Shown here: positions 1 through 17,096 of the stretch, one piece after another | How the letters are laid out: every line of letters starts with the position of its first letter | Position numbering within the stretch: the stretch's first letter is position 1 | Made by a program: the position numbers and the translations under genes | Virus record (IMG/VR): IMGVR_UViG_3300042896_000495 | Coordinates: 1-21,552 of that record | DNA from: a virus | Reading direction: 5' to 3' (one strand) | DNA length: 21,552 bases | Notes under the pieces: generated by a model | The model's input: only the letters and a program-made list of their open reading frames with translations | What the model was told of the DNA's origin: nothing | Databases searched by the model: none

Positions 1-59
1 GGTCCGCTGCCGGATGATCGGACAGCGGGAGAACCTTTATATGGTGCGTTATTGCTCAT
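1..59 (-). CDS. 5' end of an unidentified leftward gene, cut by the window edge
   Basis: A reading frame opens at an ATG at 59 and runs off the window with no stop, giving 19 full codons that begin MSNNAPYKGSPAVRSSG. The ATG overlaps the TGA of the preceding spanin-like gene in an ATGA junction. The same junction joins the other lysis-end genes, and this is the main reason to accept so short a fragment. It continues the late operon leftward. Too little protein is visible to name a function. Confidence 0.6.
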   Translation of the reverse strand, partial: MSNNAPYKGSPAVRSSGSG

Positions 60-286
60 TCCTTTGGGAGTGCGTACCAGCCCTCATGGATGGTAATACG
101 GTTCTTACTACGCACCGTTTTACCGCTGGCGTCAACAGTCCAAACCTTTGCTTCAACGCTCTCAGCGAGGCGCACAGGCTCACCGTGGGGGACGTAAATC
201 ACCCGGCTCGCGCAGCTCACGCTCATGCTCGCGCACACGATCAAGAAGACCGCGCTTAAGATCAGGTTGTTTCTTGGCGTCTTCAC
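56..286 (-). CDS. small exported lipoprotein-like protein, candidate outer-membrane spanin
   Basis: The 76-aa product starts with a basic stretch (MKTPRNN), then a hydrophobic segment at about residues 8-20 and cysteines at 18 and 25. This fits a signal peptide, possibly of the lipoprotein type, although neither cysteine sits in a canonical lipobox. The mature part contains VIYVPHGEPVRL and ends WYALPKE, a pattern I associate with small phage lipoproteins found next to holins. Its first 107 bases overlap the upstream gene in another frame, as Rz and Rz1 spanin genes do. A spanin would link the inner and outer membranes at lysis. The role is inferred from position, overlap and topology, not from a proven match. 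Confidence 0.6.
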   Translation of the reverse strand: MKTPRNNLILSAVFLIVCASMSVSCASRVIYVPHGEPVRLAESVEAKVWTVDASGKTVRSKNRITIHEGWYALPKE

Positions 287-359
287 TCGTCGTGTCCCTG
301 GTCGTCAGCGAATGAATCCAGATGACCAGCTTCATCACCAAGTCGGCTAGGAAGTTCAT
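180..359 (-). CDS. small membrane protein, candidate inner-membrane spanin
   Basis: The 59-aa product starts at the ATG of an ATGA junction with the holin-like gene upstream. It has one hydrophobic segment (residues about 3-17, MNFLADLVMKLVIWIHSL region) followed by a strongly charged tail with RVREHERELRE, probably helical. The 3' part overlaps the lipoprotein gene out of frame. The layout resembles an i-spanin/o-spanin pair, but the protein is short for a classical i-spanin. It could instead be an accessory holin or antiholin. Confidence 0.6.
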   Translation of the reverse strand: MNFLADLVMKLVIWIHSLTTRDTTSEDAKKQPDLKRGLLDRVREHERELREPGDLRPPR

Positions 360-550
360 TCCGTCTGTTTGACGGGTGCGGCAGCGGCTGATTGCTTGTT
401 CTTCCAGATCGACCATACAGCACCGAGCAGGGTGACAGTCGCGCCAGCAATCTCGGCAACCTGATCAGCACTGGCCAACCCCTTGGCTACAAGGAAGCCG
501 CCGAGTGCGCTAAGACCGTGGCGGAGGAGGGATGAAATATTGGCGTTCAT
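356..550 (-). CDS. holin-like small membrane protein (64 aa)
   Basis: The start is the ATG in an ATGA overlap with the upstream gene, giving MNANISSLLRHGLSALGG. Two hydrophobic stretches (about residues 8-25 and 30-48, with GATVTLLGAVWSIW) flank a short polar turn. A polar tail rich in K, Q and A follows. This hairpin of two membrane segments in under 70 residues fits class II holins or phage membrane accessory proteins. Its place beside a second small membrane protein and spanin-like genes supports a lysis role. The specific holin family cannot be named from the sequence alone. Confidence 0.65.
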   Translation of the reverse strand: MNANISSLLRHGLSALGGFLVAKGLASADQVAEIAGATVTLLGAVWSIWKNKQSAAAAPVKQTE

Positions 551-741
551 TTGTCGTTTTTGAGTTTGCGATAGAGTTCGACTGCTTTCACGGCGCATGT
601 AAGAAGCGCGGCGAACGCGCCAAGTGCCAATGAGGCAGTCTTGAGATTCGGATCGGTAAATACCGCGTTCCCCAGAATGCCGATGGCCGGACCACCGACG
701 CCGATTGAGATGTCTCGAATGAAAGCGTGGTGGTCCGCCAT
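547..741 (-). CDS. holin-like small membrane protein (64 aa)
   Basis: The product begins MADHHAFIRDISIGVGG and has a glycine-rich hydrophobic stretch at about residues 11-28. A second, stronger one (TASLALGAFAALLTCAVKAV) follows, and the C-terminus is basic (LYRKLKNDK). Two membrane segments and a positive tail are typical of phage holins. It is followed by another two-segment protein through an ATGA overlap, so the pair could be holin and antiholin. Which is which cannot be decided here. Confidence 0.65.
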   Translation of the reverse strand: MADHHAFIRDISIGVGGPAIGILGNAVFTDPNLKTASLALGAFAALLTCAVKAVELYRKLKNDK

Positions 742-755
742 CGTGCGTGGATGTG

Positions 756-923
756 TTAGTTAGTGGCGGCTGGAGCCTGAGCCTGCTGCTTGGCTGAATC
801 GAGGATCAGATCGTAGAGAGGAAGTCCGGCTTTCACATTGTTAATGTTGCCAGCCTTCATCCCGATTTCCACGAGTTGCAGCAGTGTGTTGGTTTGTTCG
901 ATGGTCAGTTCAATTTTAATCAT
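756..923 (-). CDS. 55-aa hypothetical protein between tail and lysis genes
   Basis: The frame starts MIKIELTIEQTNTLLQLVEI at an ATG that forms an ATGA junction with the stop of the upstream 156-aa gene. It ends at TAA 14 bases before the next gene. The product is mostly helical in character, with a Q- and A-rich C-terminus (KQQAQAPAATN) and no membrane segment. Small proteins of this kind often sit between fibre and holin genes in phages. I do not recognise a function. Confidence 0.7.
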   Translation of the reverse strand: MIKIELTIEQTNTLLQLVEIGMKAGNINNVKAGLPLYDLILDSAKQQAQAPAATN

Positions 924-1390
924 GCCGCCGGAGCATCGGTGACATCCTGAACTGGCGCAACGATTTCCTGCGCCGAAGACGGCTCGGAATCGGCCTGCGT
1001 CACCAAAACCGGCTCAACCTGAGGCAGCATCGGAGGCACGATCATCACAGGCTCAACCCACGGCAGCGGCGGAGCGATGACCGGAGGGTTGATCTGGTCG
1101 GCGATCTGCGCGGAGACGTTCGCTTCGATGGCCGCTTGATCGACGCCGTTTGCGAAGCACCAGCCAAGCACCTGATCCTGCGTCAGATCCTCGTAAGGCG
1201 TGAACGAATCAGTGGGCGGAGCGAACGACGCGCTGCCGTAGCAGGTTCCGCTGTAGGTCTTCTCGTCGTCGCCGGTTCCGGTGGTTTCGGTGCCGTTGCA
1301 ACGCCAGTCGGCGGTAATCACAACGTCCGTGAGACTGCCTTCGGTCGGCTTAACGAGAAGGCGTTCGATGATCCAAGAGAGGGTGGGCAT
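920..1390 (-). CDS. tail-fibre-associated phage protein (156 aa)
   Basis: The N-terminal 100 residues carry a pattern I associate with small phage proteins encoded next to tail fibres: WIIERLLVKP, then DVVITADWRC, a Y-S-G-x-C-Y-G segment, FTPYEDLTQDQVLGW, and an IEANVSAQI helix before PPLPW. The last 50 residues are rich in Pro, Val, Glu and Ala and probably disordered. The gene starts 3 bases after the fibre stop codon, so the two are probably co-translated. A virion or fibre-assembly role is likely. The precise family (possibly DUF7936) is from memory. Confidence 0.65.
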   Translation of the reverse strand: MPTLSWIIERLLVKPTEGSLTDVVITADWRCNGTETTGTGDDEKTYSGTCYGSASFAPPTDSFTPYEDLTQDQVLGWCFANGVDQAAIEANVSAQIADQINPPVIAPPLPWVEPVMIVPPMLPQVEPVLVTQADSEPSSAQEIVAPVQDVTDAPAA

Positions 1391-1393
1391 AAA

Positions 1394-2932
1394 TTAGCGG
1401 GCTTCGAGGGTTTGGACGCGAGCGCGGAGCGATTGGATTTCGGCAATCAGCAGCGGGACAAACGAAGAGACATCCATTTGCTGATACCTTGGATTGCCAT
1501 CAACATCGACAGCATCCTTTTCTCCAGTGACGGCATAAGGAGCGACAGTTTGAGCTTCGTGGGCCACAAGCATCGGGCGTTCAACCGAAGCACCCTTCAT
1601 CTTGCCGATGTACACCTTCAGAGAATCAATGACAGATCCGCTGTTTGAAACAGGGCCAATGATATCCTTGGCTCTGTAATCGGATGTCGTGTTGTATGCG
1701 ACAAGACCACCAGAGCGGTTGTAGCTGATAGAACCACGGCTGGTGACTGAAGCCTCTGTGTCAAAGTCGATGAAAATGTTGTTACCAGTTGTGGCGGTAT
1801 GCCAAACATTGACGGTTTCAACCGTGGCGGCACCAGTGCTTTGAAGCGCAGCAGCAACAGTTCCAACAACGGAAAGTCGCCGAGATGAGGCTATCAAAGC
1901 ACTCGTCGTCCCCACCAACAGATTCCCGCTCGCGTCGAGCGACATTCCGCTAATAGGACTAAGCGCTGCACCAGCACCACTGGAATTGTTCGTCGAATAA
2001 AACCATTCGTGCGTTCCAGTGGTCGGATTCTGAACGTATGAAAGCGAATAACCGTTTGCGATGTACTTGTTCGCTCCATCGAAATAGCGGTTGTTGCTGA
2101 CAAACAACTGGCTCACATACTGCCAAGCAGCCGATTGAGTTCCAACCTGAAGCGCTTTAACGCTCGACTGCCACGCACTCGGCGTAACCCCCACGCCGAC
2201 GTTGCCGGAGCTATCAATCCGCATCTTCTCAGTAGCAGCAGCATCCTGAGCGCAAGTGTAGAACGACAATCCCATGACGCGTCCAAACGCAGTATTGTCG
2301 AGATTGATTCCGTAAACACCGGACGACCTTACAAGACTTCCGGCTGAGTATGCCGCAGAAGATGCGGAAAAAGTGAATCCAACAAGCGAATTGAAGCTGT
2401 TGTTTGTGTTGTCTGAAGCGGCGCGAATAACCTGCTCGCGAATCTGGCTAGTACCCGTAAGCGTTGCATCCTGAACAAAGAACTTGGTGATTGGACTTCC
2501 CCCCACGCCCAGCCCCGTGGAGTTCAGGGTCATGGCGGTGGAGCCGCCGATGTTGAAGCCAGCAGTAAAACCAGCGTCGATCAGAACTACACCAGCTTTG
2601 ATTCGCGCACCTTGAACATTATCCTCCGGTGTAATATAAGCCGTCGCTGAATATCCGAGATACTTACCGGCACCAATCTGGATGTTTCCAGCACCGAGAG
2701 TTCCAACGACTCCAACGCCCACTCCATTTGCGTTCACTGTCAATCCAGCAGTCCGCACCGTCAGATCGCCGCTGATGGTGGCGGTACCCGGAACGACGAT
2801 GTTATTGCCGCTCGGCCCAACAGCCGTGTACAGCTCCGTGAAGTTCAGATTGCAGTAATCGAACGAGGTCCGCAGCGGCGTTCCCGTTCCGTCGTTCGGA
2901 GCTGTTCCGATATTGATCGTTTGCTGTGCCAT
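1394..2932 (-). CDS. tail fibre or spike with C-terminal S74 intramolecular chaperone
   Basis: The 512-aa protein opens with MAQQTINIGTAPNDGTGTPL, a motif common at the start of phage receptor-binding proteins. A long body rich in Gly, Ser, Thr and Asn follows, with repeats of the type SSGNVGVGVTPSAW and DASGNLLVGTTS. This suggests a trimeric beta-structured fibre. The last 96 residues are a peptidase S74 domain: SDYRAKDII (candidate Ser417-Lys422 dyad), a VAHEAQTVAPYAV segment, a YQQMDVSSFVPLL segment, and a terminal coiled coil IQSLRARVQTLEAR. In known S74 fibres this domain drives trimerisation and then cleaves itself off just before the serine. Receptor specificity lies in the body and cannot be read. 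Confidence 0.9.
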   Translation of the reverse strand: MAQQTINIGTAPNDGTGTPLRTSFDYCNLNFTELYTAVGPSGNNIVVPGTATISGDLTVRTAGLTVNANGVGVGVVGTLGAGNIQIGAGKYLGYSATAYITPEDNVQGARIKAGVVLIDAGFTAGFNIGGSTAMTLNSTGLGVGGSPITKFFVQDATLTGTSQIREQVIRAASDNTNNSFNSLVGFTFSASSAAYSAGSLVRSSGVYGINLDNTAFGRVMGLSFYTCAQDAAATEKMRIDSSGNVGVGVTPSAWQSSVKALQVGTQSAAWQYVSQLFVSNNRYFDGANKYIANGYSLSYVQNPTTGTHEWFYSTNNSSGAGAALSPISGMSLDASGNLLVGTTSALIASSRRLSVVGTVAAALQSTGAATVETVNVWHTATTGNNIFIDFDTEASVTSRGSISYNRSGGLVAYNTTSDYRAKDIIGPVSNSGSVIDSLKVYIGKMKGASVERPMLVAHEAQTVAPYAVTGEKDAVDVDGNPRYQQMDVSSFVPLLIAEIQSLRARVQTLEAR

Positions 2933-2959
2933 ATCTGATTAAATAATTTGTTTTTCGAG

Positions 2960-3169
2960 TTACAGAAATTCGGTCATGTCCGCCGTGATGATCGTGCTGT
3001 CAGCCGTAATCACCGTGTTGTCCGCCGTAATGTCAGCCGTTCCGCCAAGCGTCGCAGCCTCCCAGAGTAGGCCAATCTCCAGCAGATTACGCTCGCGCGG
3101 ACTCTTGCACGAAGCGCCGTAAGCCTCGGCGATCAGATTAGCAGCTTCCGCGCAGGAGATGTTAGCCAT
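2960..3169 (-). CDS. small virion-like protein with a two-Cys N-terminal module and ITAD repeats
   Basis: The 69-aa protein begins MANISCAEAANLIAEAYGAS. Its first 40 residues match the N-terminus of the next gene upstream (pattern N-I-x-C-x-E-A-x-x-L-I-x-E-A, a second Cys, then S-P-x-E). The C-terminal 25 residues are a short repeat series, with ITAD or a close variant about every 7 residues. No full C-terminal domain follows. It may be a truncated paralogue or a minimal version of the module. It lies between the other paralogue and the tail fibre, which suggests a virion or fibre-attachment role. No function is known to me. Confidence 0.7.
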   Translation of the reverse strand: MANISCAEAANLIAEAYGASCKSPRERNLLEIGLLWEAATLGGTADITADNTVITADSTIITADMTEFL

Positions 3170-3170
3170 A

Positions 3171-3599
3171 TCAGATGATGATGAACCAAGCGGTTCCGTT
3201 GCTCATAACCGTCACGCCAGCCCACTGAGAACTCAGCGTGTACGTCGTCGCCCCGTCAATCGTCTCCGACGCATAGCCGTCAACAACCACGTTGTTCGCA
3301 CCGGCATTGATCCGCTTGAACACATAGATCCGACCCGGAACAAGCGCAGCCGGAGGCAACGTAACCGTCACCGCGCCAGCGGTTGAATCGCAGAGCAGAA
3401 GATAATCACCACTCGTGACATTACCCGTCGCGCTCACGCTCCGATACGTTCCGCGCGTCGCGCCACCGCCCTGAAGATACGCGGCAATGCGATTCTCCAG
3501 AGCCAGCTTCGCCAGTTCAACCTCCCATGGAGAACGACATCCCAGCGACGCCGCCTCATTGATCAGCGTCTCCGCTTCGTCGCATGTGATGTTTGGCAT
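3171..3599 (-). CDS. virion-like protein: two-Cys N-terminal module plus beta-rich C-terminal domain
   Basis: The 142-aa protein has the same N-terminal module as its downstream neighbour (MPNITCDEAETLINEAASLG, with cysteines near positions 6 and 21). A GGG-containing linker follows at about residue 45. The C-terminal domain contains VTVTLPPAALVPGRIYVFKR and ends GTAWFIII. That pattern is common at the ends of phage fibre and decoration proteins, where it forms a small beta-sandwich. Its TGA lies one base before the ATG of the next gene, so the two are probably translationally coupled. It is likely a minor virion or fibre-connector protein. Confidence 0.7.
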   Translation of the reverse strand: MPNITCDEAETLINEAASLGCRSPWEVELAKLALENRIAAYLQGGGATRGTYRSVSATGNVTSGDYLLLCDSTAGAVTVTLPPAALVPGRIYVFKRINAGANNVVVDGYASETIDGATTYTLSSQWAGVTVMSNGTAWFIII

Positions 3600-3612
3600 A
3601 TCGATTTACAAT

Positions 3613-3900
3613 TTAGGCCATCGGACCAGAACCACGGCGCATCACCTCGGCAATGAAACCCTCCCCGCCGCCGCCCTCCGCAACCTCCTCCTCCTCGTAC
3701 TCCTCCTCATCCTCTCCGCGCTCGGCCATCTTCTTGCCCTTCGACTTACTCTCGTAGCCTGGGATGACCATGCCATCAATCTCGATGACCTCAGCCTTGC
3801 CGCCCTTGCCAAGAACGATAGTCGCCATCGTCTGGAAAGCCTCGCCTTCCTTCAGATTCTCGGGGATTTCAACGCCTTCGGGGATGGTAAATACCGGCAT
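3613..3900 (-). CDS. acidic hypothetical protein of the late operon (95 aa)
   Basis: The product starts MPVFTIPEGVEIPENLKEGE and has a compact, possibly beta-rich first half (ATIVLGKGGKAEVIEIDGM). A very acidic stretch follows (residues about 63-75, mostly Glu), then a GGGGEG linker and a hydrophobic end. The acidic low-complexity segment recalls small scaffold or decoration proteins near capsid genes, but that is only an analogy. It is the first gene after two terminators, so it probably has its own promoter or depends on read-through. Confidence 0.65.
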   Translation of the reverse strand: MPVFTIPEGVEIPENLKEGEAFQTMATIVLGKGGKAEVIEIDGMVIPGYESKSKGKKMAERGEDEEEYEEEEVAEGGGGEGFIAEVMRRGSGPMA

Positions 3901-3938
3901 ACGGGGAGCATCACTTTGTAGCCTACTCTGTCAATGCC

Positions 3939-3976
3939 AAAAACCCCCCACCAGCGCGCAACACGCTGATGAGGGG
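3939..3976 (-). terminator. second intrinsic terminator-like hairpin downstream of the capsid gene
   Basis: Read on the minus strand, a 13-bp stem (3976-3964 with 3956-3944, three G-U pairs) encloses a 7-nt loop. It is followed by five Ts (3943-3939). Together with the hairpin at 4033-4058 it makes two terminators in tandem between the capsid gene and the 95-aa gene. Capsid transcription is therefore strongly insulated from the downstream virion genes. Confidence 0.8.
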
Positions 3977-4026
3977 CGAACGTATGATACCACAAAACTA
4001 AACCGAGCCGCAATGATGCGTGAAAA

Positions 4027-4058
4027 CAAAAAACCCGCAAGCCTTTCGACCTGCGGGT
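4027..4058 (-). terminator. intrinsic terminator of the capsid gene
   Basis: On the minus strand an 11-bp stem (4058-4048 with 4043-4033) is closed by a GAAA tetraloop and followed by a run of Ts (4033-4027). It lies 20 bases after the capsid stop codon. The A at 4033 both ends the stem and begins the T run on the transcribed strand. This is a textbook rho-independent terminator for leftward transcription. Confidence 0.92.
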
Positions 4059-4077
4059 CTGTGAATTATTAGCTCAC

Positions 4078-5325
4078 TTACGAGCAGATGATGGTCGTCA
4101 GAGCGCCGGTGCAACGACGGAAGATGATGGTCATGCCCTGGTTAGTAAATACTGGCTCCGACGCATGCACGAACTCAGCGTAATGCTGACCCTTCTTCTC
4201 CAGCGGATCTTCGCAGTCCGTATTGAACTTGTAGGCACCAGTCACCCACTGCCACTCGCCCATGTAGTTGGTCGGCATCCAGCTCAAATCACCAACGCGG
4301 TTCACAGGACGCACGATGTGCGACTTGAAGACGTACGGGGTGACGATGAACGCAGCCTCGTACGGAGCGGTCGTCCAGCTCGGGTTGACGCTGAACACCG
4401 TACCCTTCGTGCCGGAAGCACTGGTGAACGGCTGAACCAGCGTGTACTTGCCACCGGCATAGGTGAAGCGGGGCGGGAACAGATTCGGAACGTGCCGGAA
4501 GTTCTTGATGACCCGGTTCGCGCCAATGCGCTTGAGCAACTCCGCTCCAGCGCCACTGCCCTGATCAGCGAAGCGCAAGTCATCGCGGAACGCGGGGTTG
4601 TTCTGAGCGATGCGCTGCGAAGCCTCCAAGCCGATGTACAGCGGGAAGATCGGACCATCGCTGGAGTAGCTGATGAAGCCAGAGCTATCAGGATTCGTCG
4701 CGCCGTTACGGATCAACGTGGCGGCGGCGACATCGAGCATCTCCTGAGTCAGCTCGGAGGTGGACTGATTGAGCGCCTGACCAACCGATCCGGTCTGAAT
4801 CCAGGGGAACTCATTCACGCCAGAGGGAATCGTCTCGACCTGAGTAAAGGACGAGTCGGCCACAGCCTTGATAGCGAACTTGGCGAAGGTGTTCTGATAA
4901 CGAGTCTCCCAAGTGCGCTGAGCGCGGATCGAGAGCTTCTCCAAGTAGACGCGCAAGAACGCCTCGACGCGGTGGTCATAGGTCAGGTCATCCTTACACA
5001 GAAGCGGACCTTTCAGCGCAAAACGCTCAGGACTCCATGTAACGGAATTAAAACCAACCGGAACCTCGCTGTAAGTGACATCGCAAGCGCCGCCGTTGTC
5101 GCCGGGGTTACCGCTCGCCAGAGTAATGGCCGACCACTCCTCAGCCGAAGTCGGCTCGATGCTGGTCGTGTTGTACGAGGTCTGGGTCAGACCCGTACCC
5201 TGAGGATACTCGCCGCGCTCAATCATGTTGAGCCACATCGAGCGGTACGAGGCGCGTTTATAAACGTCCTGAGCGAGCGACTCGGTAGCCACCGCAAAGG
5301 CGTTGAAGACATTAGGACAAGACAT
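4078..5325 (-). CDS. probable major capsid protein (415 aa)
   Basis: The protein starts MSCPNVFNAFAVATESLAQD and has no signal peptide or membrane segment. Its middle contains VTWSPERFALKGPLLCKDDL and a helical stretch EAFLRVYLEKLSIRAQRTWE. This resembles the spine-helix region and overall layout of phage major capsid proteins. Single-gene insulation supports very high expression: a long structured leader precedes it and a strong terminator follows it. Its length fits HK97-type capsid proteins. An in-frame ATG at 5373 would add 16 residues and has a GGTGGATGG stretch just upstream, so the start is uncertain. The identification rests on context and general resemblance, not on a named match. 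Confidence 0.7.
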   Translation of the reverse strand: MSCPNVFNAFAVATESLAQDVYKRASYRSMWLNMIERGEYPQGTGLTQTSYNTTSIEPTSAEEWSAITLASGNPGDNGGACDVTYSEVPVGFNSVTWSPERFALKGPLLCKDDLTYDHRVEAFLRVYLEKLSIRAQRTWETRYQNTFAKFAIKAVADSSFTQVETIPSGVNEFPWIQTGSVGQALNQSTSELTQEMLDVAAATLIRNGATNPDSSGFISYSSDGPIFPLYIGLEASQRIAQNNPAFRDDLRFADQGSGAGAELLKRIGANRVIKNFRHVPNLFPPRFTYAGGKYTLVQPFTSASGTKGTVFSVNPSWTTAPYEAAFIVTPYVFKSHIVRPVNRVGDLSWMPTNYMGEWQWVTGAYKFNTDCEDPLEKKGQHYAEFVHASEPVFTNQGMTIIFRRCTGALTTIICS

Positions 5326-5377
5326 GAGATGAAAAATGTAAACCGACGTTACCTGCGTTGTTTGGTTGGCCATCCAT

Positions 5378-5513
5378 CCACCACACGGTGGCTGATTATC
5401 CAACCGCTTCCGATGCGGAGTGTCATTGCCGCTTAGACGTTTGCCACGGATGACCAATCCGTGGCCCTGCTTAGGGTCGTTACGCGGGATGGAGCGATAG
5501 AAATGCTTATCGC
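5378..5513 (-). promoter_or_regulatory. structured 5' leader of the capsid gene with four hairpins
   Basis: The 193 bases between the nuclease gene and the capsid ATG (5325) hold no gene. They contain four inverted repeats: 5378-5391 (5-bp stem, ACAC loop), 5404-5418 (CCGC/GCGG), 5443-5465 (perfect 9-bp stem GCCACGGAT, 5-nt loop) and 5494-5513 (6-bp stem GCGATA). None is followed by a T run in the leftward direction, so they are more likely leader structures or protein sites than terminators. All four lie upstream of both possible capsid start codons. Confidence 0.55.
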
Positions 5514-5518
5514 GTCAA

Positions 5519-6046
5519 TTAAAATGTGTCGTCCATAGGGTTGGCCACTAACTCCGATTGGATGGCGGCGTATGAGCGATAACCCTTAATTATCTCAATC
5601 CGATGAGGCGCGATGATCGTCTCCCGCGCTATCATGCCACGGTAAGTGTACGGACCTGGGAATGAGCCGGTCATTAGGACATAGAAATCAACGCTATCGG
5701 TTTTCGGGCCTTTGCGCGCATCGACTAGTAGCTTTCCAGTCTCGTACTTGGTCGTTTTGACATCGATGCGGAATCCTGGCGGAGGTGGGATTGTCGCGTC
5801 GTAGAGCGGATGCGGAGGATCGCGGTCGGTATCCAGATCAGGATACACGTTGAACAACTTACAGAACGCTATCTCGCCGCATATACCCTCCAAATCCACA
5901 GTCGCAGAATCCTGCGCGCTGATCTTCAGGTTGGTAATGTTGAAATGACGATTATTGCCGTTGCGATTCTTGGCGATGAAGTGGGCCAACTTCCTCTCAG
6001 CGGTTGTTAAAGATACAGTTTGACCGATTTTGATTTTGTTTATCAT
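5519..6046 (-). CDS. PD-(D/E)XK-like phage nuclease
   Basis: The 175-aa protein has the arrangement of a PD-(D/E)XK nuclease core. There is a helix with DLEGICGEIAFCKLFNVYP (Glu58), an acidic strand with YDATI (Asp83), and RIDVKTTKY (Asp95-x-Lys97). I associate this pattern with a phage family of about this size. The start at 6046 (MINKIKIGQT) was chosen because it begins just before the conserved part. The frame is open further up to an ATG at 6211, but that stretch contains a hairpin and reads as low-complexity protein. The gene sits between terminase-like and capsid genes, so a role in DNA processing at packaging or in host DNA breakdown is possible. Confidence 0.7.
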   Translation of the reverse strand: MINKIKIGQTVSLTTAERKLAHFIAKNRNGNNRHFNITNLKISAQDSATVDLEGICGEIAFCKLFNVYPDLDTDRDPPHPLYDATIPPPPGFRIDVKTTKYETGKLLVDARKGPKTDSVDFYVLMTGSFPGPYTYRGMIARETIIAPHRIEIIKGYRSYAAIQSELVANPMDDTF

Positions 6047-6174
6047 GGTCAAAAAGGTGGAAAATTTTTGAGGGGGGTATCGTAAACGAAGCCCACCCGC
6101 AAAGGGGGTGCCACCCTCTACCCCATAAACTGTGCCAATCCTAGGGAAAAACAATCCTTTTCTGTCATAAGCAA

Positions 6175-6195
6175 AACTTATGCTGATCATAAGTT
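6175..6195. promoter_or_regulatory. 8-bp inverted repeat in the leader of the nuclease gene
   Basis: AACTTATG and CATAAGTT form a perfect 8-bp inverted repeat around a 5-nt centre, and a further partial copy (GTCATAAG) lies at 6164-6171. This is the main structure in the 177-bp gap 6047-6223. The rest of the gap is G/C-homopolymer rich, with GGGGGG and CCACCC tracts at 6072-6124. The repeat could be an operator for a dimeric repressor or a hairpin downstream of the small-terminase-like gene. Confidence 0.4.
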
Positions 6196-6223
6196 CCCCT
6201 GCGTTGCACAATGGGTGTTATAT

Positions 6224-6673
6224 TTACTTCGAATCGGATTCTCCCGTGACTTGAATCTCCGCGACTCGATCAGGCATTGAACCAAGCAGATTAATGCTCA
6301 CACTTGCTTGCTCGCCAGTTTCCGACCACCCAAACACAAGCGCCGATCGCTTCGCCACGCTGCCCAGAATAGTCTCACGCACGCTTTCGTCTTTTATCCC
6401 GTCCAAGTCATAGCTGTCTATGCGTTCCAACGTGCTGGCTGCATCGGCGGCGAGCTTTGAGCGGACAAGTGCGGACAGGCTTTCTAGGCTTTCGGTTTTC
6501 TTTTCAATGCAAACCGTTTGCATTTCCTTTTTGACCTTCGTAACACCTTCTAAGCTTGCCCGTTTGCAAAGCGTTGTTTTGTTCACTTTCAATTTGTCTG
6601 CGATAGCGTCCCATTCCATTCCGGCAAGGTAGAGGCTACATGCCCTTTGCCAGACTTCCTTTGGCATTCCCAT
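6224..6673 (-). CDS. helix-turn-helix protein, candidate small terminase subunit
   Basis: The 149-aa protein has an N-terminal helix-turn-helix (residues about 5-45): VWQRACSLYLAGMEWDAIAD, then KLKVNKTTLCKRA. A central helical region (SLSALVRSKLAADAASTLERI) could oligomerise, followed by a C-terminal tail. This layout, and its place as the first gene of the late operon, fits phage small terminases, which bind the packaging site. No large terminase follows in the window, so a transcription regulator remains possible. Repeats matching ATTCCGGCAAG lie in and just upstream of the gene and are candidate binding sites. A second ATG at 6667 is an equally plausible start. Confidence 0.55.
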   Translation of the reverse strand: MGMPKEVWQRACSLYLAGMEWDAIADKLKVNKTTLCKRASLEGVTKVKKEMQTVCIEKKTESLESLSALVRSKLAADAASTLERIDSYDLDGIKDESVRETILGSVAKRSALVFGWSETGEQASVSINLLGSMPDRVAEIQVTGESDSK

Positions 6674-6776: not shown

Positions 6777-6796
6777 AAACTTTTTCAAACTTTTTC
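6777..6796 (+). repeat. tandem 10-bp repeat next to the early promoter
   Basis: AAACTTTTTC occurs twice in direct succession (6777-6786 and 6787-6796), one base before the -35 hexamer of the rightward promoter. The period is about one DNA turn. It could be an A/T-rich UP element or a double activator site. The remaining part of the 6674-6834 control region shows nothing else besides the direct repeats and the promoter. Confidence 0.55.
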
Positions 6797-6797
6797 T

Positions 6798-6826
6798 TTG
6801 ACTCCCCGCCACGTCCACTCTAGTCT
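6798..6826 (+). promoter_or_regulatory. rightward early promoter, TTGACT-17-TAGTCT
   Basis: A -35 hexamer TTGACT is separated by 17 bases from TAGTCT. Another site in this window (13334) has nearly the same hexamers and the same spacer. Transcription would begin about 6833, at or one or two bases before the ATG at 6835, so the first message could be leaderless. The assignment rests on sequence pattern and on its place in the divergent control region. Confidence 0.6.
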
Positions 6827-6834
6827 ATCCCAAC

Positions 6835-6942
6835 ATGAAACGCTCAACCCTCAAACGCCTCGCCATTGCCTTGGCAATCATCGCTTTCGTCATCTTCCAA
6901 GCATATCTAGAAACGTCCCTCAACTTCACCCCCAACCACTAA
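6835..6942 (+). CDS. 35-aa single-span membrane peptide, first early gene
   Basis: The frame reads MKRSTLKRLAIALAIIAFVI and continues to a short polar tail ending NFTPNH. A basic N-terminus followed by about 17 hydrophobic residues indicates one membrane segment. It is the first frame after the early promoter and ends 10 bases before the next start, so it fits a first gene of the operon. No Shine-Dalgarno site precedes it. Function is unknown; very early membrane peptides of phages often act on the host envelope, but nothing in the sequence proves this. Confidence 0.6.
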   Translation: MKRSTLKRLAIALAIIAFVIFQAYLETSLNFTPNH

Positions 6943-6952
6943 ATCAAATCCC

Positions 6953-7324
6953 ATGAATTATCCCGAAACTATCCCCGCCGCCTATTCCGCCGATTCCGCT
7001 TTGGAGCGTGCCTATCGCCTAGGTTGGAATCATGGCCATGGAATCGCTTGCCATAACACGCCATCGATCGGCGATTCGATTGACAGGTCAATTGACTGGA
7101 CTGGACTTGATAAAACCGTCACGCCGGAAAATATCGCCGAATATCATGAATGCCTTTGCTTCGCCGCCGAATCCAATTCCCGTGACTTCTCGCCATTCGA
7201 ATTCATTGCCCACGAATTCAACGAATCGGAGGATTCCGAATCGCTTTGGGAAGCTTTCGAATCCGGCGTTGCCGATTCTATTCGATTCGATTTGAAGTCC
7301 TATTCCTACTCCGAATTGGTTTGA
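6953..7324 (+). CDS. acidic hypothetical early protein (123 aa)
   Basis: The product starts MNYPETIPAAYSADSALERA and contains a GWNHGHGIACHN segment, then long acidic stretches (FIAHEFNESEDSESLWEAFE). It has no membrane segment. It has the look of an acidic early phage protein, but I do not recognise a family. The start lies in the context AAATCAAATCCCATG with no Shine-Dalgarno site; the same 15 bases precede the next gene. Its TGA is the first part of RNA element A1. Confidence 0.75.
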   Translation: MNYPETIPAAYSADSALERAYRLGWNHGHGIACHNTPSIGDSIDRSIDWTGLDKTVTPENIAEYHECLCFAAESNSRDFSPFEFIAHEFNESEDSESLWEAFESGVADSIRFDLKSYSYSELV

Positions 7325-7381
7325 TTCCCGATAGACAGGCTTTCGGAAACGGAAGCCTGCAATCGGTAATCACGCCGAATC
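7323..7381 (+). ncRNA. structured RNA element A1, GAAA-capped, between early genes
   Basis: Starting inside the TGA of the upstream gene, nested helices can form. P1 is GATTC (7323-7327) with GAATC (7377-7381). P2 is CCGAT (7328-7332) with ATCGG (7362-7366). P3 is 10 bp (7336-7345 with 7350-7359, one G-U pair), closed by GAAA. A small AGA/CA internal loop separates P2 and P3. Element A2 keeps the plan and the P1 bases but has different P3 and mostly different P2 sequences. There is no T run, so it is not an ordinary terminator. Confidence 0.65.
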
Positions 7382-7404
7382 AAAAACCAATCAAATCAAA
7401 TCCC

Positions 7405-7650
7405 ATGAAAGCCAATTGCTACCTCTCCCCGCACTCTAAAGTTCGCCGTACGTTTCCCCGTTCTCATGAAGCCTCGTTTTACGTTTCCGGGGAATCCCCG
7501 GAGCCTATCGTCAAGCTTTACGGTTCGATTGAACGGGGGCAGTGCCATGCCGAACTTGTAAACGGGGAATACCTCACGGTTCCCACCGGCAAAGGATTTA
7601 TCCTTTCAATCCATGAAGTCGAAACCCCTGCAATACTCGCCAACCGATAA
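7405..7650 (+). CDS. hypothetical early protein (81 aa)
   Basis: The product starts MKANCYLSPHSKVRRTFPRS and reads as a small mixed alpha/beta protein with no membrane segment or recognisable motif. The ATG was chosen over upstream starts because it carries the same AAATCAAATCCCATGAA context as the gene before it and lies after element A1. It is followed after 19 bases by the next ATG, without any structured element. Confidence 0.7.
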   Translation: MKANCYLSPHSKVRRTFPRSHEASFYVSGESPEPIVKLYGSIERGQCHAELVNGEYLTVPTGKGFILSIHEVETPAILANR

Positions 7651-7669
7651 TTCCAACGCATCCAATCCC

Positions 7670-7990
7670 ATGATCCTAATTTCCCGTACCTATGAAGTCG
7701 TCACCCCGGAATCCGCCGAATTCGGGGAATCCGACGACGCCGGATTTATCTGTCAATCGGAGCCGGTTTCCTTCCGCGAGCTAGTCGAATTGATGCGCGC
7801 GCATCCAATCCCTTCCTCGTCGCCGTGTGATGGTTCCCGTTGGGATTGGCTTTCATCTTATCCTGAGGAAAACTATCGGGATTGTTCCAATCGGACGGAA
7901 TCCCTTCATTACGACAAGTCCAATCCGCCGTCGCGCGACAAATACTGGCGCAAATCAATGGCCATGGCCGGAATCCGTATTCGCCGCTGA
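7670..7990 (+). CDS. conserved-type phage hypothetical protein (106 aa)
   Basis: The start at MILISRTYEVVTPESAEFGE is favoured by the CCAATCCCATG context; an upstream in-frame ATG at 7613 would overlap the previous gene. Residues about 9-45 (TPESAEFGESDDAGF, then VSFRELVELMRAHP) and a segment with W and Y before RTESLHYD match a pattern I know from many phage and plasmid hypothetical proteins. Its function is not established. The stop codon begins element A2. Confidence 0.75.
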   Translation: MILISRTYEVVTPESAEFGESDDAGFICQSEPVSFRELVELMRAHPIPSSSPCDGSRWDWLSSYPEENYRDCSNRTESLHYDKSNPPSRDKYWRKSMAMAGIRIRR

Positions 7991-8036
7991 TTCCCCGCGT
8001 CAATCCATTCGAAAGAGTGGATTGCAGCGGCGAATC
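7989..8036 (+). ncRNA. structured RNA element A2, GAAA-capped, between early genes
   Basis: It has the same plan as A1. P1 is GATTC (7989-7993) with GAATC (8032-8036). P2 is CCGC (7995-7998) with GCGG (8027-8030). P3 is a 10-bp stem (8001-8010 with 8015-8024, one G-U pair) capped by GAAA. A GT/CA internal loop lies between P2 and P3, and the CA is shared with A1. As in A1, the first two bases are the GA of the upstream stop codon. Nearly the whole P3 stem differs from A1 in sequence but stays paired. Confidence 0.65.
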
Positions 8037-8069
8037 AATCCCGATTCCCGGTTCAATAAATCCAATCCC

Positions 8070-8339
8070 ATGCAATCAATCCAAACAAAATTCCTGTCAG
8101 CGACTGAATCAAAAGGCTCACGCATCAAAGCAAAGTGCGCGCGTGGTTCTATCGTCATCCCCTACCCGCATGAATTGACAGGCGACGAAACCCACCGCGC
8201 GGCAGTTCTCGCGCTTGTGACTCGTTTTCTTGACGAAGACGAATCGAAAGGCAAGCCCCGCGAAACCAATTTTTGGAACCGCACTTTCGTAAGCGGTTCG
8301 CTCCCCGACGGTTCGATGGCGCATGTTTTCCTAAGCTGA
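8070..8339 (+). CDS. hypothetical early protein (89 aa)
   Basis: The product starts MQSIQTKFLSATESKGSRIK in the context AAATCCAATCCCATG. It contains a YPHELTGDETHRAAVLALVT helix, an acidic-basic patch and an aromatic C-terminal half with FWNRTFVSGSLPDG. This pattern (sequence tag, then HxxAAxALxxK-like helix) recalls small conserved phage proteins of unknown role. No membrane segment or catalytic motif is visible. Element B1 follows 4 bases after its stop. Confidence 0.72.
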   Translation: MQSIQTKFLSATESKGSRIKAKCARGSIVIPYPHELTGDETHRAAVLALVTRFLDEDESKGKPRETNFWNRTFVSGSLPDGSMAHVFLS

Positions 8340-8343
8340 CCGC

Positions 8344-8406
8344 TGACCCATCCTCCGCGCGCCATGCGGCAACGCGTGACGCGAAAGGGTAGGTCAATCT
8401 ATCCGC
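8344..8406 (+). ncRNA. structured RNA element B1, GCAA-capped, with conserved flanks
   Basis: A 6-bp inner stem (8363-8368 with 8373-8378) is capped by GCAA. After a C/A mismatch it is extended by 4 bp (8358-8361 with 8380-8383). ACCC (8346-8349) can pair with GGGT (8387-8390) around it. Alternatively, GGGTAG (8387-8392) can pair with CTATCC (8399-8404) over a 6-nt loop. The flanks TGACCCATCCTCCG and AAAGGGTAGG are shared with B2 while the stem bases differ. Confidence 0.65.
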
Positions 8407-8421
8407 AACCGATCAAACATT

Positions 8422-8751
8422 ATGTCACCTGAACCAATCATCTCAGAATTCCGCACCCTTGAATCCCAGCACCTTGTGCGCCTCCGCGCAGAACCGGAAA
8501 CCGAAAGTTATTTCTCCGTTTTCGGAGAACCGGATTCCGCGCAGGAACGGCAGCAAATGCTCGACACTATCGAAAACCTCGGCTGTTGGTGCGTCATCTC
8601 GGAATTCTACGAGGACGGCGCATGGCATCATTCCGACAGCGTTGGTTTTTGCACTGGTTACGAAAACCCACTGAAGCCTGAAGAAAATTTCTATGTTGTT
8701 GACCTTATGCGCGCAGCTATCGACAGCCTGAATCGACCGGAGCCGGTTTGA
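8422..8751 (+). CDS. hypothetical early protein (109 aa)
   Basis: The product starts MSPEPIISEFRTLESQHLVR. It is acidic, with an AQERQQMLDTIENLGCWCVI segment and a tail with DLMRAAIDSLNRP. There is no membrane segment or known motif. The start context (AAACATTATG) lacks a Shine-Dalgarno site. The gene sits between elements B1 and B2, and its TGA is the first part of B2. Confidence 0.72.
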   Translation: MSPEPIISEFRTLESQHLVRLRAEPETESYFSVFGEPDSAQERQQMLDTIENLGCWCVISEFYEDGAWHHSDSVGFCTGYENPLKPEENFYVVDLMRAAIDSLNRPEPV

Positions 8752-8808
8752 CCCATCCTCCGCGCATCACACGCAAGTGTGCTGCGAAAGGGTAGGCCAA
8801 ACTATCCG
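8749..8808 (+). ncRNA. structured RNA element B2, GCAA-capped, covaries with B1
   Basis: It has the same plan as B1. The inner stem is CACAC/GTGTG (8768-8772 with 8777-8781) with a GCAA loop. After a T/C mismatch there is an outer stem CGCA/TGCG (8763-8766 with 8783-8786). ACCC (8751-8754) can pair with GGGT (8790-8793), or GGGTAG (8790-8795) with CTATCC (8802-8807). In the outer stem a G-C pair of B1 is an A-T pair here. The inner stem has changed in sequence and length but remains paired. Confidence 0.65.
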
Positions 8809-8826
8809 CAGCAATCAATCCACCCC

Positions 8827-9039
8827 ATGCGCTACAAAATCCAACTCTCAACCTCAACCGGCGGCTGGTCAGACCTCCGCGAATCCGCGAATGACGGCCA
8901 GACCTACGAAACCTGTTTATTCCCCACGCGCAAAGCAGCCCTTGCCGCGCGCGAGGAGTTCTCAGAACTGTCGGAATTCCTCGAAACCATGCGAATCGTC
9001 CCCGCCGAAACTCCAGAAACCGAGAACATCTACGCCTGA
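8827..9039 (+). CDS. hypothetical protein with KIQ...GWSDL fold, paralogue of 11581 gene
   Basis: The 70-aa product starts MRYKIQLSTSTGGWSDLRES. It shares the pattern K-I-Q-x-S, GWSDL, then a Tyr-Thr pair, F-x-T-R-K-x-A and R-I-x-V-P with the protein at 11581-11826, so the two are paralogues. The fold is probably a small alpha/beta domain. The start was placed after element B2 at CACCCCATG. No function is known to me. Confidence 0.72.
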   Translation: MRYKIQLSTSTGGWSDLRESANDGQTYETCLFPTRKAALAAREEFSELSEFLETMRIVPAETPETENIYA

Positions 9040-9045
9040 AATCCC

Positions 9046-9282
9046 ATGAAATACAGAATCGGATACAATCATACCTCGCCCGAGTTTACGTCTTCCTATG
9101 CTGACGCGCGGAAAGCGGTCCGGCGTGAGGCTCGGACGCGCCGCATGATCGGCATGTCGGTCCGCCTCCGCTCGGTCAAATGCGACGACGGCGAATACCT
9201 CTACCTATCGACCGCCGATCTTCGCCAAGATTGCGACGGTTCGCGCGCCTTCGCGGTCATCTCCAAAAACTCCAACGCCTAA
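9046..9282 (+). CDS. basic hypothetical protein (78 aa)
   Basis: The product starts MKYRIGYNHTSPEFTSSYAD. A basic helix (ARKAVRREARTRRMIGM) follows, then a polar C-terminus with DGEYLYLS. The charge could suit nucleic acid binding, but there is no named motif. The ATG has the AAATCCCATGAA context 6 bases after the previous stop. No membrane segment is present. Confidence 0.68.
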   Translation: MKYRIGYNHTSPEFTSSYADARKAVRREARTRRMIGMSVRLRSVKCDDGEYLYLSTADLRQDCDGSRAFAVISKNSNA

Positions 9283-9289
9283 GAACCCA

Positions 9290-9571
9290 ATGAAATCCCA
9301 CACTCCCGGACCTTTCCCGCTCAAAATCACGCAATCTGACGACTTTTTCGTCATCATCACGAATCAGGGAAACCATTACGCGAAGACTTTCGACCCTGCC
9401 GCCGCCCATTTAATCGCCTCCGCCCCTGAGTTGCTGGCCGCGCTGGAAGCCGTGACGAAAGCCTATGTCGAACTGGTTCAGTCTGATTATCCGCCTTCGT
9501 GGAGTGCTGAGAAAGACAGTGAAGTCATTGCAGCACGAGCAGCCATCGCGAAAGCAAAAGGAAACGAGTGA
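9290..9571 (+). CDS. HTPGP-type phage protein, paralogue of 9758 gene (93 aa)
   Basis: The product begins MKSHTPGPFPLKITQSDDFF, then AAAHLIASAPELLAALEAVT and ends IAKAKGNE. The HTPGP start and the LIASAPELLAALE helix are a familiar pattern of small proteins common in phage early regions, function unknown. The protein at 9758-10021 shares the helix and the AKG ending. The stop overlaps a GTG start of the next gene (GTGA). Confidence 0.75.
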   Translation: MKSHTPGPFPLKITQSDDFFVIITNQGNHYAKTFDPAAAHLIASAPELLAALEAVTKAYVELVQSDYPPSWSAEKDSEVIAARAAIAKAKGNE

Positions 9572-9753
9572 AAACCAAACAGCCAACCTATCGCGAACTT
9601 TACCTTCGCGCCTATGCGGCCCACGCGCAAGAAGAGGGCAAATATCAGCGACTGCTTTTCCTAACGCGCAAGATCGCGAAAGCAATTCCCGCAGGGCATA
9701 AAGTCCTGAAAGACTGGAAAGACTGGGAACAACAAATCAAAGAGAACGGATAA
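9568..9753 (+). CDS. basic small hypothetical protein (61 aa), GTG start
   Basis: The frame begins at a GTG in a GTGA overlap with the previous gene and reads as M-KTKQPTYRELYLRAYAAH. It is basic and helical, with a C-terminal KVLKDWKDWEQQIKEN. The junction supports the non-ATG start. No motif is recognised. Confidence 0.6.
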   Translation: MKTKQPTYRELYLRAYAAHAQEEGKYQRLLFLTRKIAKAIPAGHKVLKDWKDWEQQIKENG

Positions 9754-9757
9754 AATT

Positions 9758-10021
9758 ATGCCAAGACATTACCTTAAAGATCCAAGCGACGGACCATGGA
9801 AGCGTACCCTAGGCTTATACACCGGATGGGAAATCATGGATTCCAATGGCCATATCATCGTGCGAGTAATCGACAACACCCACGGCAAGCCAAACGCCAT
9901 TCTGATTGAATCCGCCCCCGATCTTCTCTCCGCGCTGGAACGTCTCACGCATCCAATGGCCGACGACGACGACCTAGGCTACGCGCGCGAGGTCATTAAG
10001 AAAGCGAAAGGCCAGCTATGA
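9758..10021 (+). CDS. HTPGP-type paralogue (87 aa)
   Basis: The product starts MPRHYLKDPSDGPWKRTLGL. It has a beta-rich middle with IVRVIDN and a helix ILIESAPDLLSALERLT, and ends VIKKAKGQL. The helix and ending match the protein encoded at 9290, so this looks like a diverged duplicate. The stop overlaps the next ATG (ATGA). Role unknown. Confidence 0.7.
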   Translation: MPRHYLKDPSDGPWKRTLGLYTGWEIMDSNGHIIVRVIDNTHGKPNAILIESAPDLLSALERLTHPMADDDDLGYAREVIKKAKGQL

Positions 10022-10158
10022 AAGTCTATTGGACAGCCTACTACGGCAAATTCCGAAAAAGCGAATACACGTTTCAGGGCCGCAACGCCAAGCGCGACGC
10101 GTATCGACTGGTCAAACGATTCGGCGGACGTGTGGTTCGCGAGAAAGGTCAGCCATGA
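10018..10158 (+). CDS. 46-aa basic hypothetical protein
   Basis: The frame starts at the ATG of an ATGA junction and ends in another ATGA junction with the following gene, which supports its reality despite its size. It reads MKVYWTAYYGKFRKSEYTFQ and continues with a basic helix (NAKRDAYRLVKRF). The charge and aromatic residues would fit nucleic acid binding, but this is only a possibility. Confidence 0.62.
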   Translation: MKVYWTAYYGKFRKSEYTFQGRNAKRDAYRLVKRFGGRVVREKGQP

Positions 10159-16451: not shown

Positions 16452-17096
16452 ATGAAAGTCAAAATCGCAGCAATCACAAAACCACTTGTCGGCGACGGCA
16501 CAATGACCGCATCCGACTTCATCACGTTCGCAGCGCGAGTCAGTAATCCGAGCAACCAGATGAGCCTGCTCACCGCTCCGAAACTACTGGCCTACTGCAT
16601 CAAGAACGGCCACTGGAGCATTTTCGAACAGGCCAGTATGACAGTCGAGATTCAGACCAGCCGCGCCATCTCCGCTCAGATCATTCGCCATCGTTCGTTC
16701 TGCTTCCAAGAATTTTCACAACGGTATGCGCCGAGTGATTCGCCGGAGCCGGTCGAACTTCGCACTCAGGATCGAGTCAACCGCCAGGGAAGTGGCGATT
16801 CGTTTGATCAAGACTGGGCGTACGACGCGGTGGCCAAGTCTGTCGATCTTGCGTTCCGCACCTATCGCAAACTCCTGCAAGAGGGCGTGAGCCGCGAGAC
16901 TGCTCGCATGGTTCTTCCGCTCTGCACACAAACAACGCTGTACATGACTGGCAACATCCGCTCATGGATTCATTACTTCGAGCAGCGTTGCGCGAAGGGT
17001 ACGCAGAAGGAGCATCGCCAGATCGCGCTGGCCATTCGAGACGGCATTTTTGCCGAGCATTTTCAGGTCATTCACGAAGCGATTACGAGCGAATAA
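16452..17096 (+). CDS. thyX: FAD-dependent thymidylate synthase
   Basis: The 214-aa protein has the ThyX signature RHRSFCFQEFSQR (residues 79-91), close to the consensus RHR-x7-S-x-R. It also has the earlier HWSIFEQASMTVEI segment and the C-terminal SRETARMVLPLCTQTTLYMT and IRSWIHYFEQRC regions. ThyX makes dTMP from dUMP using methylene-tetrahydrofolate, NADPH and FAD, and supplies thymine nucleotides for phage DNA synthesis. Length and motifs are normal. Upstream, 70 bases hold no gene; a G-rich run (16396-16409) is the only feature. Confidence 0.95.
   Translation: MKVKIAAITKPLVGDGTMTASDFITFAARVSNPSNQMSLLTAPKLLAYCIKNGHWSIFEQASMTVEIQTSRAISAQIIRHRSFCFQEFSQRYAPSDSPEPVELRTQDRVNRQGSGDSFDQDWAYDAVAKSVDLAFRTYRKLLQEGVSRETARMVLPLCTQTTLYMTGNIRSWIHYFEQRCAKGTQKEHRQIALAIRDGIFAEHFQVIHEAITSE

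Follow-up and report, generated by a model that had tools for sequence, protein, structure and literature searches.

Stop-codon-anchored hairpins in a small-gene array of related viral contigs: a candidate phage element against re-initiation

Two hairpins of an IMG/VR virus fragment, termed here A1 and A2, belong to a family of structured elements (family A) whose lower helix starts on the stop codon of the upstream gene, and which sits between mosaic small genes in approximately 60 related viral contigs. Judged by their anatomy, A1 and A2 could be modular phage elements resembling the ribosome termination structure (RTS), placed between cistrons and blocking re-initiation between gene units; we give this reading a probability of roughly 0.5. 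As a kind of element, family A is closest to the RTS. As an RNA family with a stop codon built into a stem, it is one for which our literature search found no precedent, and one in a subscription journal could exist.

The window, i.e., the whole stretch of DNA analyzed (21,552 bases), carries leftward genes over positions ~1-6,670 and rightward genes from ~6,840, the latter opening with a row of small ORFs. A1 stands at the stop of the first array ORF of more than 100 aa (6953-7324) and A2 at the stop of the third (7670-7990). The features of this region are as follows.

7322..7372, plus strand: A1 stop-anchored hairpin (fold; homologous junctions; covariation); P1 7322-7326/7368-7372 with the TGA stop in its 5′ strand, P2 7328-7332/7362-7366, P3 7336-7345/7350-7359, GAAA loop 7346-7349
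7988..8037, plus strand: A2 stop-anchored hairpin (fold; covariation); P1 7988-7993/8032-8037, P2 7995-7998/8027-8030, P3 8001-8010/8015-8024, GAAA loop 8011-8014
7363..7378, plus strand: possible alternative helix P4 of A1, TCGGT 7363-7367 with GCCGA 7374-7378 (in-silico fold)
8032..8047, plus strand: possible alternative helix of A2, GAATC 8032-8036 with GATTC 8043-8047 (constrained fold)
8344..8396, plus strand: B1, a hairpin of family B (the sister family), beginning 7 nt beyond the T of the TGA stop located at 8337
8749..8799, plus strand: B2, hairpin of the sister family B, beginning at the TGA stop of ORF 8422-8751
6953..7324, plus strand: ORF g1, 123 aa, with TGA 7322-7324 as its in-frame stop
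7405..7650, plus strand: ORF g9, with a TAA stop and a 19-nt junction to g8 without a hairpin
7670..7990, plus strand: ORF g8, 106 aa, ending in A2, with TGA 7988-7990 as its in-frame stop
8070..8339, plus strand: ORF g13 (phrog_3199, unknown function), followed by B1
6947-6955, 7398-7407, 7664-7672, 8064-8072, and 9040-9048, plus strand: leader AATCCC-ATG at ORF starts

The array starts lack a Shine-Dalgarno sequence. The AATCCC-ATG leader is often preceded by AAATCC repeats, variable in number, and ATCCCATG occurs at 56 of 83 next starts in the relatives. The g1 protein has no match in Pfam or PHROGs, and its AlphaFold model, with a mean pLDDT of 46.6, is of too low a quality for use. Upstream of it, a short ORF of approximately 34 codons (MKRSTLKRLAIALAIIAFVIFQ..., 6836-6942) apparently encodes a membrane-inserted peptide, and similar peptides precede g1 in many relatives. 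A possible early promoter (TTGACT..TAGTCT, 6794-6835) lies directly ahead of the first array ORF; it is absent from the list returned by a consensus promoter scan, and two related contigs, L037 and L080, have a similar TTGACT..CTAGTCTGTCC ahead of their arrays. Further downstream in the window, positions 16452-17096 encode a thymidylate synthase-like protein with ~52% identity to the thymidylate synthases of cyanophage and Escherichia phage Pollock.

Both paired hairpins of the original prediction exist, with z-scores of -6.9 (A1) and -7.6 (A2) against 200 dinucleotide shuffles, and its 10-bp GAAA-capped P3 was borne out, as was the change of P2 from CCGAT/ATCGG to CCGC/GCGG. The fold had been placed within the stop codon from its GA onward; the tie to TGA stands, whereas the starting point moves, because the stop's T takes part in the pairing as well. 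Closure by GAATC, proposed for both copies, is correct for A2 (stem TGATTC/GAATCA) and fails for A1, where in the minimum-energy fold TGATT pairs with the proximal AATCA (7368-7372) and not with the distal GAATC (7377-7381). The proximal closure is backed by compensated changes in relatives (TAATT/AATTA and TGAAT/ATTCA). The P3 stems, described as entirely different between the copies, in fact agree at 4 of 10 bases of their 5′ strands and share the U·G wobble of the family, and the CA singled out in the 3′ internal loop varies family-wide (CA, TA, GG, CC, or AT).

A protein search with g1 yielded 46 viral loci, approximately 43 of which have the same kind of hairpin right at the stop, and a pattern search added approximately 20 further contigs. 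With a covariance model, the family was found across the related contigs and, in the longer ones, only within the small-gene region. Loss of pairing in related phages had been named as evidence against the fold, and pairing proved to be retained. The 26 homologous first-position junctions contain 68 double changes compared with 19.6 after shuffling, and their covariation score is 0.431 versus 0.171 (0/500 shuffles). Among 44 A2-type copies, 97.8% of cells are paired, with 149 double changes versus 43.8 and a covariation score of 0.486 versus 0.162 (0/500). The covariation is lost when the partners are shifted by 1-3 columns.

The non-Watson-Crick cells in the alignments bear on the strand. In the set chosen by protein homology alone, G-U occurs in 39 cells and A-C in 3; this is the usable figure, since another ratio obtained, 93:1, is biased by a search that itself allowed GU. 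Because action on the opposite strand would reverse the bias, the ratio of 39:3 indicates a structure that works as coding-strand RNA, and the sequence comparison thus favors family A being an RNA-level structure on that strand. In a set of 91 distinct hairpins chosen only by folding at stops, 78 carry a GNRA tetraloop (GAAA, GCAA, GCGA, or GTAA). The third pair below the loop is a U·G wobble in 49 of 58 distinct P3 stems and also in 22 of 25 family B copies.

The anchoring of family A on stop codons is nearly without exception. If homologues had been placed independently of stops, the predicted tie would have failed; instead, the 86 distinct copies start with TGA (84) or TAA (2), and in at least 84 of the 86 an ORF (of ≥40 aa, or running off the contig) ends in frame at the starting triplet. 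At one exception, L038:3388, the real stop lies 5 nt upstream of the hairpin; for L056, where two TGAs overlap, the script took the first of them as the starting triplet. Every one of the 26 homologues pairs the second base of its stop (20 GC, 4 GU, and 2 AU), and so does every one of the 44 A2-type copies (30 GC, 13 GU, and 1 AU); this pairing could partly descend from a few ancestral junctions. The lower helix P1/P2 takes up 11-13 bases on the 5′ side, and, when bases are numbered from the stop's T, P3 starts at base 14 (45 copies), 15 (19), 13 (8), or 17 (7). By established toeprint geometry, a ribosome holding a stop codon in its A site covers approximately 12 bases, the first of which is the first base of the codon; thus, the lower stem would lie inside the terminating ribosome and P3 just outside it. 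The fold free energy of 40-nt windows at the stop has a median of -16.3 kcal/mol, the weakest of 79 copies reaching -11.7 kcal/mol.

The hairpins follow a simple rule of junction length. Junctions with hairpins are 66-84 nt long, hairpins being found only at gaps of at least 60 nt, and the stops there are TGA in 100 cases versus TAA in 3. None of 103 distinct gaps of 0-30 nt contains a hairpin, and their stops are mostly TAA (73), followed by TGA (29) and TAG (1). The type of junction goes with the upstream gene: an A hairpin follows g1, g3, and g8 at all of their distinct junctions (33/33, 27/27, and 16/16, respectively), g4 leads into a short junction (16) or into B (8), g17 likewise into either, and g9, g18, and g24 reach their partner genes through short junctions. 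This grammar implies that the hairpins separate units of closely spaced genes. Two short junctions, L008:4338 and L071:2947, resemble a lone 5′ hairpin arm (TGACCCATCCTCCGCGCATACAATG and TGATTCCCCGCGCACTTATG, respectively), as if hairpins were gained or lost as a block.

The original prediction left open whether such a fold serves termination, re-initiation, or message stability. Control of re-initiation appears to be favored by the anatomy, given P3 just outside the terminating ribosome, the rule of short and long junctions, and the missing terminator T-run. Under the proposed mechanism, the ribosome decoding the stop would have to melt P1/P2, as this lower helix starts on the stop codon itself, while the GNRA-capped P3 would stand just beyond the leading edge of the ribosome. 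Upon release, P1/P2 would refold over the stop codon and block the post-termination 70S or 30S particle from sliding to the next AUG, ~25 nt further on. With sliding blocked, every unit would be translated by fresh initiation at its own AATCCC-AUG leader, and coupling would be permitted at the short, hairpin-free junctions within units.

This anatomy is that of RTSs, hence the proposal that the hairpins insulate the units of an early operon. RTSs are recognized by a folding energy of no more than -6 kcal/mol per 40 nt; they are depleted below and enriched above gaps of 25 nt, their signal peaks at the boundary of the mRNA that a terminating ribosome shields, and experiments with a synthetic operon have linked them to reduced re-initiation (Chemla et al., 2020, PMC7518266). 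The RTS proposal itself is based on a synthetic operon together with genome-wide averages. By the same measures, all 79 copies of the present hairpins lie beyond -6 kcal/mol per 40 nt, they occur at long gaps and in none of the 103 distinct gaps of 0-30 nt, and A1 and A2 stand apart from their shuffled counterparts (z of -6.9 and -7.6). Family A is therefore like an RTS in its stable fold directly behind the stop at the ribosome edge, in its gap rule, and in the lack of a transcription terminator. RTSs, however, are defined by stability alone, have no general motif, and are mostly located at operon ends, whereas family A is a covarying family with conserved arms, a GNRA loop, a U·G wobble, and the stop inside the stem, lies within operons between exchangeable phage genes, and in some copies has a possible second fold. 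The conserved arms, loop type, and wobble exceed what insulation alone requires.

The possible second fold arises when the tail behind the hairpin pairs with the 3′ arm of its stem, e.g., CGGCGA-ATCAA-TCGCCG, CGGGT-AATCAA-ACCCG, and CGGTGA-ATTAA-TCACCG. This helix, P4, excludes P1/P2 in A1; when the first 12 nt are held unpaired in silico, to mimic a ribosome, P3 persists and P4 forms. Among A2-type copies, the arms pair better with their own tails (13.24) than with swapped ones (11.29 ± 0.26; 0/500) and the P4 columns covary (0.159 versus 0.075), although the fourth pair of P4 fails in 20 of the 44 copies. In class a, the hairpin class to which A1 is close, own tails pair no better than tails swapped within the class, so P4 there lacks covariation support, and P4 is absent from the TGAAT subclass. 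In masked folds, P4 forms in 67 copies with own tails, compared with 49 ± 3 after letter shuffling and 62 ± 2 after swapping, the last of which makes this count weak evidence. Overall, the second fold is suggestive and partly supported. It raises the thought of a two-state switch that senses the terminating ribosome: an occupied stop would free the 3′ arm of P1/P2 to form P4 with the tail just upstream of the next start, an empty stop would be locked by P1/P2, and the state would decide whether the next gene is started. We regard such a switch as rather unlikely.

Several other functions were weighed against insulation. The hairpins might act on mRNA stability or processing, blocking 3′-to-5′ exonucleases or marking cleavage sites so that each unit has its own half-life. 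Very stable GNRA-capped stems at gene ends would suit this function, as would the read-through transcripts expected where no terminator T-run is present. Neither the exact start of the stem on the stop in at least 84 of 86 copies nor the constant distance of P3 would be explained in this way, and we consider it an unlikely main function.

The gene order of the array is mosaic, and nine hairpin cores (38-45 nt) recur unchanged between different pairs of genes; in L057, the hairpin that closes g25 is of class a and almost the same as A1, even though the g25 and g1 proteins are unrelated. Such findings would be expected if the hairpin region were mainly a conserved seam for the exchange of small genes by homologous recombination. 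Recombination, however, needs sequence identity, whereas the P3 arms diverge with their pairing kept and with GU preferred over AC, which argues for selection on RNA structure; exchange may merely result from shared junctions. Accounting for the family primarily as a seam thus seems improbable.

A further possibility is that the hairpin slows the finishing ribosome and so cuts the output of the upstream gene. Hairpins of the E. coli REP type located <16 nt from a stop have been reported to stall ribosomes and to reduce upstream translation, and P3 of family A, which begins 13-17 nt away from the stop's first base, falls within the 15-nt window given there (PMC12306157, citing an earlier study). 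REP palindromes resemble family A in their many copies and in a hairpin near stops, and differ from it in being chromosomal and in not requiring pairing with the stop (PMC12306157). A roadblock needs no such pairing, yet the lower helix has it; moreover, the presence of hairpins tracks the junction grammar (between versus within units), and one would expect the early genes of a phage to call for high rather than lowered output. A stalling role is accordingly given little weight.

The recurrence of the U·G wobble (49/58 P3 stems and 22/25 B copies) and of GNRA loops (78/91) would be consistent with a tip read by a phage or host RNA-binding protein that regulates the array. No candidate protein was found, GNRA loops are stable anyway, and stop anchoring would be left unexplained, making this function highly improbable. 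Recoding at the stop, either selenocysteine insertion or programmed read-through, deserves almost no credence: bacterial SECIS elements likewise have a hairpin immediately after UGA, its upper stem standing just beyond the ribosome, but family A has no read-through frame (in 47 of 82 copies the hairpin itself contains the next in-frame stop, and hairpin length does not keep to one frame), tolerates TAA, present with compensation in two copies, and has no Rfam match.

Three further candidates were rejected. An intrinsic terminator is contradicted by the lack of TTTT within 15 nt after the hairpin in all 91 cases (0/91) and by a terminator scan that was negative at A1 and A2. For integron attC sites, which are folded bottom-strand DNA with RYYYAAC...GTTRRRY boxes, the boxes are absent from the copies inspected by eye and the GU:AC ratio is 39:3; a hint of them (GCTTAAC...GTTAGGT) appears in two copies of the unrelated contig L047 described below and is missing from three of its five copies and from family A. 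A DNA cruciform or a bottom-strand hairpin is disfavored by the bias of GU over AC.

In family B, the arms (TGACCCATCCTCCGCGC..P3..GCGAAAGGGTAGGCCA) are nearly invariant in 25 relatives and the inner stem covaries. These hairpins stand mostly at the last junction ahead of the next gene block. Of 39 junctions, 9 have the hairpin beginning precisely at the stop, and in the others it begins 4-13 nt downstream; if these hairpins perform the same job, it is without strict stop anchoring. Within family B, pairing is also possible between the tail sequence CTATCC and GGGTAG in the 3′ arm. Two additional types were observed in the relatives. The first (L007:3887, L025:6022, and L029:10113) follows a TAA stop and has the form CCAGGAAATTTTTATTTC..GNRA..GTAAATC..TCCTGG, standing between g41 and g10 in L007 and L029. 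The second (L059:2597, L061:3535, and L067:6594) is another stop-anchored subtype, TGAAGGTGCGCGTC..GCAACGTGTCTTCA and relatives, with the tips of the family and different arms.

Hairpins of a comparable design but other sequence occur in L047, an unrelated phage contig that encodes a distant g1 relative. Five of them, TGACAATC..CTTAA..P3..TAGGTGACTGCCA, lie at positions 7625-10150, and a search of IMG/VR found this pattern only in L047. The P3 arms differ and all of them pair, one P3 being common to two of the five copies; P3 starts at base 15-17 after TGA, and the next start is preceded by a GGGGA leader. The stop bases are unpaired in the fold of the bare element and weakly paired in longer folds. 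By sequence, the L047 hairpins may represent a parallel to family A that arose independently.

Among previously described elements, Rfam 15 gave no gathering-score matches in the window, the best sub-threshold matches lying elsewhere and being ascribed to chance. DNA of named phages does not match A2. The closest named relative of the helicase is from Verrucomicrobia phage P8625 (34%), a phage from which the hairpin element is absent. A scan of cellular genomes gave three hits, none of them with a GNRA-capped P3, which we read as chance. Phage T4 has intercistronic CUUCGG hairpins that are, as in family A, exceptionally stable tetraloop hairpins between genes; the tetraloop differs, and we know of no stop anchoring among them. 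A likeness to the array is also found in the SAS/ESAS elements of cluster K mycobacteriophages, repeated leaders right ahead of the starts of many small variable genes, about half of which have an inverted repeat just upstream (PMC3203893). They share with the array a repeated leader at such starts and differ from family A in sequence, in being defined by gene starts with no stop anchoring, and in having no covariation analysis (PMC3203893).

What a ribosome does after an in-operon stop, and what share RNA structure has in deciding it, is an open question, for which the many selected variants of one stop-pairing element make base-by-base predictions possible. If the two-state switch were true, family A would be the first dedicated RNA family with a stem built on the stop codon, and such a design would have arisen more than once in phages, namely in family A and, with a different sequence, in L047. 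If insulation is true, these phages could swap small early genes within one operon without disturbing the translation of their neighbors.
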